45,881 bases of DNA, from assembly GCA_003213095.1 (NCBI GenBank), contig QCNV01000010.1, forward strand, positions 1 through 45,881. Direction: 5' to 3'. This document shows positions 1,747-4,653 of the stretch, piece by piece. Position numbers and translations under genes: made by a program. Source of the DNA: SAR202 cluster bacterium AG-426-M11. GTDB lineage: Bacteria; Chloroflexota; Dehalococcoidia; Lucifugimonadales; UBA826. How positions within the stretch are numbered: the stretch's first letter is position 1; each line of letters starts with the position of its first letter. The notes beneath the pieces were generated by a model. The model had not been told where the DNA came from, ran no database searches, and saw only the letters and a program-made list of their open reading frames with translations.

Positions 1747-4176
1747 ATGGTTTTAGGTCCAGATAAATTTACAGAGCATGCTCAAGAAGTCATAAATGCC
1801 GCTCAACAAATATTGATGAGGTATAGGCATAATCAATTAGATTCCGAACATATTTTATTGGCTTTAATTGAACAAGAAAAAGGTGTTCCTGCAGAAATCT
1901 TTAAAGAGTTAGGAGTTAACCTAGACGTCCTTCATGCTAGGTTGCATAAATATTTAGAATCTTCCCCAAAAGTTGTAGGGCAAAGAAACCAAATATACCA
2001 AACTCCTGGTGTCGGACTGTTATTTCAATTAGCCGATTCAGAATCTAAAAGATTTAATGATGAATTTATTGCAACTGAGCATATACTGATAGCATTAGCT
2101 GATAAATCTATCCCTTCTACTTCTGCAATTCTCAGTGAATTTACTGTCACCTCTGAAGAAATTTATAAAGCTTTAAAAAAAATAAGAGGGACTCACCGTG
2201 TAACTGATCAGAGAGCTGAGTCTAGGTATAGATCTTTAGAGAAATATGCACTTGATCTGACCTTTTTAGCTTCTGAAGGTAGATTAGATCCTATCGTGGG
2301 TAGAGATTTAGAAATTTCTAGAGTAATGCAAACATTAATACGTAGAACTAAAAATAATCCTGTAGTAATTGGAGGAGCTGGAGTAGGTAAAACTGCAATT
2401 GCTGAAGGTCTGGCTCAAAGAATTTATTCTGAAGATGTTCCTGATGAACTAGTTGGCAAAAAAGTTCTTTCTTTGGATATGGGATCTCTAGTTGCTGGCT
2501 CAAAATTTAGAGGAGAGTTTGAAGAAAGACTAAAGGCTGTGATGGATGAAGTTAAGCAATCAGAGGGTGAAATAATTTTATTTATTGATGAAATTCACAC
2601 AGTTGTGGGAGCTGGAGCTGCTGAAGGTAGTGTAGATGCAAGTAATATGATGAAACCGGCATTAGCTAGAGGAGAATTACAGTGTTTAGGTGCGACTACT
2701 GAAGATGAATACAGAAAATATATAGAATCTGACCCAGCTTTAGAAAGAAGATTTCAACCCATAATTGTTGAAGAACCTGATGTTGATACTAGTGTGGAAA
2801 TGCTTAAAGCTCTTAGGCCTAAATACGAGTCACATCATAAAGTTAAAATTTTAGATGAAGCCTTAGAATCTGCTGCAAAATTGAGTCAAAGGTATATTTC
2901 AGGGAGATTATTGCCTGACAAAGCAGTAGATTTAATAGATGAAGCAGCTAGTAAAATTAGAATAGAGGCGCAACTAAATCCTATTCCTCTTCGAGAAAAA
3001 GAATCTAGATTAAGACAATTAAAAGATGAAGAATTGGCTGCTGTAGAAATTTCTGATTATGAAAAAGCCGCCGATATTAAATCTGAAAGAATTCAATTAG
3101 AAGAAGAATTAACTTTTATTAATGATGAATCTGAAGATGTAGATCACAAAATGGTGATGAGTTCAAAAGAGATAGGTGAATTAATAGCTATATGGACTGG
3201 TATTCCTGTAGATCGATTATTAGAAAATGAATCCGAGAAACTAATTCATATGGAAGAAAGATTACATGAAAGGATGGTTGGGCAAAATTCACCAATTACT
3301 GTGGTTTCAGAAGCTGTTAGAAGAGCTAGAGCTGGATTAAAAGATCCCAAAAGACCAATTGGTAGTTTTATTTTTTTAGGCCCCACAGGTGTGGGTAAAA
3401 CTGAATTAGCAAAATCATTAGCATGGTTTTTGTTTGATGATGAAGAAAATATGGTTCGTATAGATATGTCAGAATACATGGAATCTCATTCGGTATCCAG
3501 GTTGATAGGTTCACCACCGGGCTATGTTGGGTATGGTGAAGGTGGGCAATTGACAGAAGCTGTTAGAAAAAGACCGTTTAGGGTAGTACTTTTTGATGAA
3601 ATAGAAAAAGCTCACCCAGATGTTTTTAATATTTTGTTGCAAGTATTAGAAGATGGTATTTTAACTGATGGTCAAGGTAGAAAAGTAGATTTTAGAAATA
3701 CAATAATTATTTTGACTAGTAATTTAGGGGTGACAGATTCAAAAATTCAATCACTGGGTTTTTTAGCCTCATCAGAAAAATCTTCTGAAAATGAAAATCA
3801 AATTAAGATTAAAAAATCTATTGAAGATGCATTAAAAAAATCATTTAGGCCTGAGTTTTTAAATCGATTAGATGAGATTGTAATATTTGATTCAATAAAT
3901 ATTGACCAACAATATGAGATTGTAGAAATCATGTTTAATAGCATTAAAGATAGGGTTGCTGAATTTGAAGTTGATTTGCTTTTAGATGATACTGCTAATA
4001 AATGGCTTGTTAAAGAAGGATTTGACCAAGAATATGGTGCTAGACCATTGCGAAGAGCTTTGCAAAAATATGTTGAAAATCCATTGTCAACTCAAATTCT
4101 TAAAGGTGAGATTGCAGCTGGTGACACTATAAAAGTTTTGGAAAAAGACTCAAAATTGGAATTTCAAAAAATTTAG
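1747..4176 (+). CDS. clpC: AAA+ ATPase ClpC (Clp protease regulatory subunit)
   Basis: Hsp100 unfoldase that feeds substrates into ClpP (encoded at 27350). At 809 residues it has the full ClpC architecture: two Clp-N repeats (about 1-150), the first AAA+ module with Walker A GGAGVGKT at 209-216 and an FIDEIH Walker B, a UVR-type middle segment (about 415-460), and the second AAA+ module with Walker A GPTGVGKT at 545-552 and [10 protein letters not shown], then the C-terminal D2 small domain. No McsA/McsB adaptor genes or CtsR adjoin it. It has its own promoter and is followed by a small Tat-signal gene. Confidence 0.95.
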
Positions 4177-4244
4177 ATATTGATATCTTTAAATATTGCA
4201 GAATATAATTTTGATTAGTATATTTTTGTAATTGAGAGGTAATT

Positions 4245-4424
4245 TTGAAAAGTAATAAGGTTTCTAGAAGATCATTTTTGAAGGGATTGCCTTTGGGTTT
4301 ATTGGGTGTTTCAGCTATCGGTTTGTTTAGTGGCAAAATGATTTCATCTGCTGCAAACAGGAAGGCTCCCAAATTTAAAAAAGGCTCAATTTTTACTCCT
4401 CGGGATTCAGATATCAGGGGATAG
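4245..4424 (+). CDS. 59-residue twin-arginine-signal microprotein
   Basis: Short gene starting at TTG with a good ribosome site, GAGAGG (4234-4239), 5 nt upstream. The translation begins MKSNKVSRRSFLKG, an exact match to the Tat consensus S/T-R-R-x-F-L-K at residues 7-13. A hydrophobic stretch follows (about 15-28), then SSAAN resembling a signal-peptidase region (34-38), and a short basic tail with KFKKGSIFTPRDSDIRG near the end. Nearly the whole protein is signal, so the exported or anchored part would be only about 22 residues. It lies between clpC and the tRNA-Ser pair on the same strand. I do not recognise the family. Small Tat-signal proteins are known as partners of respiratory dehydrogenases, but no such enzyme is in this window. 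Confidence 0.7.
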   Translation: MKSNKVSRRSFLKGLPLGLLGVSAIGLFSGKMISSAANRKAPKFKKGSIFTPRDSDIRG

Positions 4425-4464: not shown

Positions 4465-4554
4465 GGAGAGGTGGCCGAGTGGATTAAGGCGCTGGTCTCG
4501 AACACCAGTATGGGATTTATCTCATCGTGGGTTCGAATCCCACTCTCTCCGCCA
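4465..4554 (+). tRNA. tRNA-Ser(CGA)
   Basis: Class II tRNA. The acceptor strand GGAGAGG pairs with TCTCTCC. Anticodon stem CTGGT/ACCAG encloses loop CTCGAAC with anticodon CGA at 4499-4501. There is a long variable arm (TATGGGATTTATCTCATC), T-arm GTGGG-TTCGAAT-CCCAC, discriminator G4551 and genome-encoded CCA at 4552-4554. The large variable arm and discriminator G confirm serine identity. Confidence 0.95.
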
Positions 4555-4561
4555 ACAATTT

Positions 4562-4653
4562 GGAGAGATGCTAGAGTGGACGAATAGGCGCGACTGGAAA
4601 TCGCGTGTTTCCTGCAAAGGAAACCGTGGGTTCGAATCCCACTCTCTCCGCCA
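4562..4653 (+). tRNA. tRNA-Ser(GGA)
   Basis: Second class II serine tRNA, 7 nt after the first. Acceptor GGAGAGA pairs with TCTCTCC. Anticodon stem CGCGA/TCGCG carries loop CTGGAAA, with anticodon GGA at 4596-4598. The long variable arm GTTTCCTGCAAAGGAAAC folds as a perfect hairpin. The T-arm is identical to that of the neighbour, and CCA is encoded at 4651-4653. The acceptor and T-arm identity suggests tandem duplication followed by anticodon-arm divergence, or concerted evolution. Confidence 0.95.

Follow-up and report, generated by a model that had tools for sequence, protein, structure and literature searches.

A conserved Tat-type microprotein of SAR202-type Chloroflexota and its proposed role as an accessory subunit of alternative complex III

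Introduction

CydX, CcoQ and PetG are small single-helix subunits of complexes of respiration and photosynthesis, for which a stabilizing role has been proposed, and they are not Tat substrates. Alternative complex III (ACIII) is a menaquinol:cytochrome c oxidoreductase. The ocean holds large numbers of SAR202-type bacteria. For the ACIII of Rhodothermus marinus, the published description lists the non-universal extra subunits ActG, with one predicted transmembrane helix and no cofactor, and ActH, a periplasmic three-helix bundle, together with an unassigned periplasmic density (PMC5928083). The Rieske protein PetA provides an example of a Tat signal that is reported to remain uncleaved and to anchor its protein in the membrane as part of a respiratory complex (PMC3623810). 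A further family, TIGR02811 (formate_TAT, 'formate dehydrogenase region TAT target'), comprises proteins of ~66 residues that are mostly Tat signal and are encoded beside a Tat-exported molybdo/Fe-S complex.

Here we analyse a 59-residue microprotein encoded in a window of 45,881 nucleotides (the whole stretch of DNA under study, positions 1 to 45,881 of contig QCNV01000010.1) from SAR202 cluster bacterium AG-426-M11. It resembles each of these systems in part. Like ActG, it would be a small non-universal ACIII subunit with one predicted helix, whereas the available part of PMC5928083 describes no Tat signal for ActG and the microprotein has a Tat motif; both comparisons are by description only. 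Like PetA, it is proposed to be held by an uncleaved Tat anchor, but PetA carries a folded Fe-S domain and the microprotein only a short tail. With TIGR02811 it shares its small size, its mostly-signal make-up and a place beside an exported enzyme complex, but the neighbouring enzymes differ. Membership in TIGR02811 was rejected, as the microprotein scores 16.7 bits where the cut-off is 48.45 and the match is limited to residues 3–42, without the SIFxP tail; the best E value of this model against 33 family members was 3.5e-5. CydX, CcoQ and PetG are likewise tiny and single-helical, but their sequences are unrelated and they do not use the Tat route; the Pfam match to PetG is at chance level (E 0.28).

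Results and Discussion

The locus and selection on the gene

The microprotein (MKSNKVSRRSFLKGLPLGLLGVSAIGLFSGKMISSAANRKAPKFKKGSIFTPRDSDIRG) is encoded by an ORF at 4245..4424 (+) with a TTG start and 59 codons. The features of the locus are the following:

4180..4209, + strand, promoter-like site TTGATA-18-TATAAT, found by a scan whose count in the region is at chance level
4234..4239, + strand, ribosome-binding site GAGAGG, 5 nt upstream of the start and kept in both sister genomes
4245..4424, + strand, microprotein gene, 59 aa, with a TTG start that is GTG in the sister genomes
4263..4283, + strand, Tat motif S-R-R-S-F-L-K, residues 7–13, with R8 and R9 invariant in 60 members
4284..4334, + strand, hydrophobic segment, residues 14–30, core of the single predicted helix 8–37
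4386..4406, + strand, C-terminal motif S-I-F-T-P-R-D, residues 48–54, from the alignment of 60 members

The upstream neighbour is clpC (1747..4176), identified from the ORFs and a Pfam check, and downstream there are two tRNA-Ser genes (4465..4554 and 4562..4653) followed by topA. Two sister genomes, G077 and G141, share the promoter-like site letter for letter, whereas the flank past the stop codon diverges. A six-frame search of the window for [ST]RRxF[LVI] followed by an uncharged run returned the microprotein as its single match, and 200 single-base shuffles of the window returned none. The source genome (G000; 1.16 Mb, 78% complete) encodes TatC.

Pairwise NG86 estimates were dN 0.055 and dS 0.549 for G000–G077, dN 0.043 and dS 0.565 for G000–G141, and dN 0.015 and dS 0.289 for G077–G141, placing dN/dS inside the genus at 0.05–0.10. 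The relatives compared keep the frame, without stops or indels, and the overall length. Judged from these comparisons of sequence, 4245..4424 is a genuine, selected and conserved gene. An earlier sequence-only reading had described a 59-codon TTG-started gene with a ribosome site between clpC and the serine tRNAs, and the ORF list and Pfam bear this out; the SRRSFLK, hydrophobic run, SSAAN and FTPRDSDIRG tail that it listed are all present as letters in the ORF. It had proposed conservation of the RR motif and the C-terminal tail with low dN/dS as support, which is what we observed, and had named stops, frame shifts or mere nucleotide drift as grounds for dismissal, which were looked for in the relatives without success, so the gene stands.

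A lineage-restricted family with two conserved ends

A single-sequence search recovered relatives in 55 of the 197 genomes sampled from the order. With a profile, the microprotein was detected in 149 of them at E ≤ 1e-5 and in 164 at E ≤ 0.01, the weaker matches including ordinary Tat proteins. Aligned members share a common layout, M..(S/T)RRxFL, ~17 uncharged residues, a basic linker and S-[IML]-F-x-P, with this last motif placed a few to ~35 residues ahead of the stop. Among 60 aligned members, R8, R9 and S48 never vary, and I49, F50 and P52 are conserved in at least 90%. RK or KR variants of the Tat motif occur in two bacterial families (RK in f47, KR in f24). The f24 members at L063 (G023) and L060 (G057), with KR in place of RR, also carry an additional C-terminal SCGCANC, a sequence that is possibly metal-binding.

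Outside the order, the matches in a search of 400 genomes of the phylum were ORFs of 115–1089 aa, mostly aligned over the Tat part alone, with the exception of two genomes from f47, a family of the same class, to which a class search added two further f47 genomes. The other matches were long ordinary Tat proteins, and this search served as a specificity control. No Pfam model covers the microprotein, and NCBIfam gave nothing above cut-off except TIGR01409, a generic Tat-signal domain (18.5 bits against a cut-off of 16.7); the family thus appears unnamed, and it appears lineage-restricted. A PHROGs search gave no match, a PDB sequence search with two family profiles matched Tat signals alone, and a literature search found no description of the family.

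Tat signal and membrane topology

The microprotein has the S/T-R-R-x-F-L-K motif of Tat substrates followed by a hydrophobic run. An AxA sequence past this run is found in only 14 of 85 relatives, and thus no conserved signal peptidase I site was detected. An AlphaFold2 model from 60 family sequences (mean pLDDT 81) consists of one helix, residues 8–37, and an extended tail. The long helix with its extended tail, in the absence of a conserved cleavage site, gives the molecule the look of a membrane-anchored mini-protein, and the scarcity of AxA together with the model fits an uncleaved anchor of the PetA type better than a cleaved precursor. Conservation extends to the C-terminal SIFxP motif but not to the cleavage site, so the microprotein probably keeps its signal as a membrane anchor that holds a periplasmic tail, and is not a cleaved signal peptide; its predicted topology is N-in, C-out. 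The earlier interpretation of SSAAN as cleavage-like was therefore not upheld, and of the idea of a Tat protein that is mostly signal, the conserved Tat-type microprotein stands and the ~22-residue mature product probably does not. Two f47 members, L168 (G504) and L227 (G658), encoded at the end of the ACIII operon, have R-K where the twin arginine would be, which may not work as a Tat signal; the family may therefore not use the Tat route throughout.

Linkage to the ACIII operon

The microprotein gene is located less than 15 kb from actD in 40 genomes belonging to 14 families (113 genomes could be assessed, and for 36 no position of ActD was listed), against a chance expectation of ~1–2% of genomes. 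The spacing is mostly 7.0–8.7 kb, which puts the gene right beyond the operon's 5' end, with five cases at 11.6–13.9 kb. In the commonest layout within the order, the microprotein gene is divergent from the 5' end of c8-actA-B1-B2-F-C-D-E; inside the order it is usually divergent from the act operon and not within it. The cytochrome c maturation genes ccmH/ccmF are often found behind actE in linked loci. G061 is an exception, with the co-oriented arrangement mutS-mutL-microprotein-c8-actA. In all four genomes (3 genera) of the outgroup family f47, the microprotein gene is the last of the operon, actA-B1-B2-F-C-D-E-microprotein, and in G504 and G317 it starts ~10–14 bp past the actE stop. No operon-terminal microprotein was found in 11 other ACIII-bearing genomes of the class. 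The ACIII genes are unlinked to the microprotein in f1, f6, f31 and most of f41.

The gene is thus in or beside the act operon in other genomes, as an accessory subunit would be, and unlinked in the genome of the window, whose ACIII lies on another contig (G000:C1:72607-80081). There, c8, ActA (with five CxxCH), ActB1, ActB2, an ActF/ActC-type NrfD, ActD and ActE were matched, so the putative partner is present.

MutL and MutS recur as neighbours inside the order in 9 and 7 families, respectively, counts taken from a neighbour ranking that is skewed by one batch of loci chosen for their linkage; the count of genomes with the microprotein gene within 15 kb of actD is the unbiased one. As partners they were rejected, being recurrent in the order yet not beside the microprotein gene in f47. 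In f2, f3, f11, f24 and f34 (L041, L047, L057, L055 and L060), the microprotein gene lies just upstream of a gene for a BioY-type biotin transporter.

Co-occurrence with ACIII

Nearly all sampled genomes of the order, 185 of 197, encode ACIII. In a sample of 393 genomes of the class, the microprotein (E ≤ 1e-6 with a full-length match) was present in 31 of 78 ActD-positive genomes and in none of 315 ActD-negative ones, so that it occurred only with ACIII; these counts ignore relatedness and, as the genomes are related, neither they nor the linkage counts are independent. The genomes of the order with the microprotein and without ActD either show matches of the ActC/ActF type or have a completeness of no more than 82%. 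G032 and G054 lack ActD, any ActC match and the microprotein, all of which are present in their relatives G061, G019, G071 and G097. Neither ActD nor the microprotein was found in G012 and G084, whose ActC-like proteins are only 37–38% identical.

The ActD-lacking G012, G072 and G084 encode NrfD-type proteins ~38% identical to ActC, near which G012 and G084 also encode Tat-signal proteins of ~320 aa. In these three genomes, the place of ACIII may be taken by another quinol complex.

Many near-complete f29 genomes (among them G028, G058, G086, G128 and G148) encode ACIII and have no detectable microprotein, which indicates that ACIII does not generally require it. When an act-adjacent microprotein was sought in the f29 genomes with a weak or silent profile, it was found in G195 only. 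The f29 loci L188, L190, L193 and L206, for example, hold ACIII and come from genomes with no detectable microprotein, and five f29 genomes have the microprotein beside the operon.

Proposed role and alternatives

The two arrangements beside ACIII, the absence from genomes without ActD and the order-wide conservation support the reading of the microprotein as an ACIII subunit. An accessory subunit is most likely and an assembly factor less likely, and on gene order and sequence we lean towards the microprotein being an accessory subunit of ACIII with a single Tat-inserted helix, so far unnamed and restricted to its lineage. That it represents an undescribed class of ACIII subunit, a Tat-inserted single-helix peptide with a periplasmic SIFxPR tail docked on the complex, we regard as an evenly balanced proposition. 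The twin-arginine motif would deliver the N-terminus to the Tat translocase, and the uncleaved signal would remain as a single membrane helix, N-in and C-out. The periplasmic tail of 25–35 residues would then dock through its SIFxPR motif, either on the periplasmic ActA/ActB/ActE module or on ActC/D/F, and could stabilize ACIII or the contact that ACIII makes with the oxidase. In the family to which the window belongs, the gene would have moved from the act operon to its site between clpC and tRNA-Ser. The sequence-only reading had left the partner unnamed, none being adjacent; this holds for the genome of the window, and gene order elsewhere points to ACIII. By the same gene order, its expectation that such proteins usually serve exported cofactor enzymes appears to hold for this one.

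It is unlikely that the microprotein is an escort in ACIII assembly or export, aiding the Tat-exported ActB1/B2 pair or the c-type cytochrome subunits and then leaving. The linkage data, both the proximity to actD and the f47 operon end, fit this as well; CcmH and CcmF genes lie behind actE in several linked loci, and the microprotein is dispensable in some ACIII genomes. ActB1, moreover, has its own Tat signal. The members, however, are composed of a Tat signal and an anchored tail and lack any soluble chaperone domain, and the operon-terminal position suits a subunit at least equally.

Next comes the reading, also improbable, of a Tat-anchored microprotein with another partner, such as a terminal oxidase or a general envelope function, in which case the adjacency to ACIII would be inherited gene order and the f47 arrangement a coincidence. 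Many families lack act linkage, MutL and MutS are recurrent neighbours too, and elsewhere BioY, clpC or other genes adjoin the microprotein. Such a reading has to account for two ACIII arrangements, 5' and divergent in the order but 3' and operonic in f47 (4/4), and for the absence of the microprotein from ActD-negative genomes. A spurious ORF, or the decayed remnant of a larger Tat-exported protein, might be suspected from the short length and non-ATG start, but is refuted almost to certainty by the low dN/dS and by the conservation across the order of start, ribosome site, promoter, frame and both end motifs.

If the microprotein is indeed an ACIII subunit, it would be a lineage-specific part of a main respiratory complex in SAR202-type Chloroflexota, and its very small size and its departure from the operon in many lineages would explain why it was overlooked. 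Present in about three-quarters of the genomes of the order and with two near-invariant end motifs, the family would add a component to ACIII, and it provides a specific example of a Tat protein that is almost wholly signal and has a predicted partner, which can be tested directly. A second small protein was noted at these loci: in the genome of the window (G000:C1:79782-80081, L095) and in many families, the ACIII operon opens with a gene for a ~99-aa membrane protein without a Pfam match, a candidate for another unnamed ACIII component.
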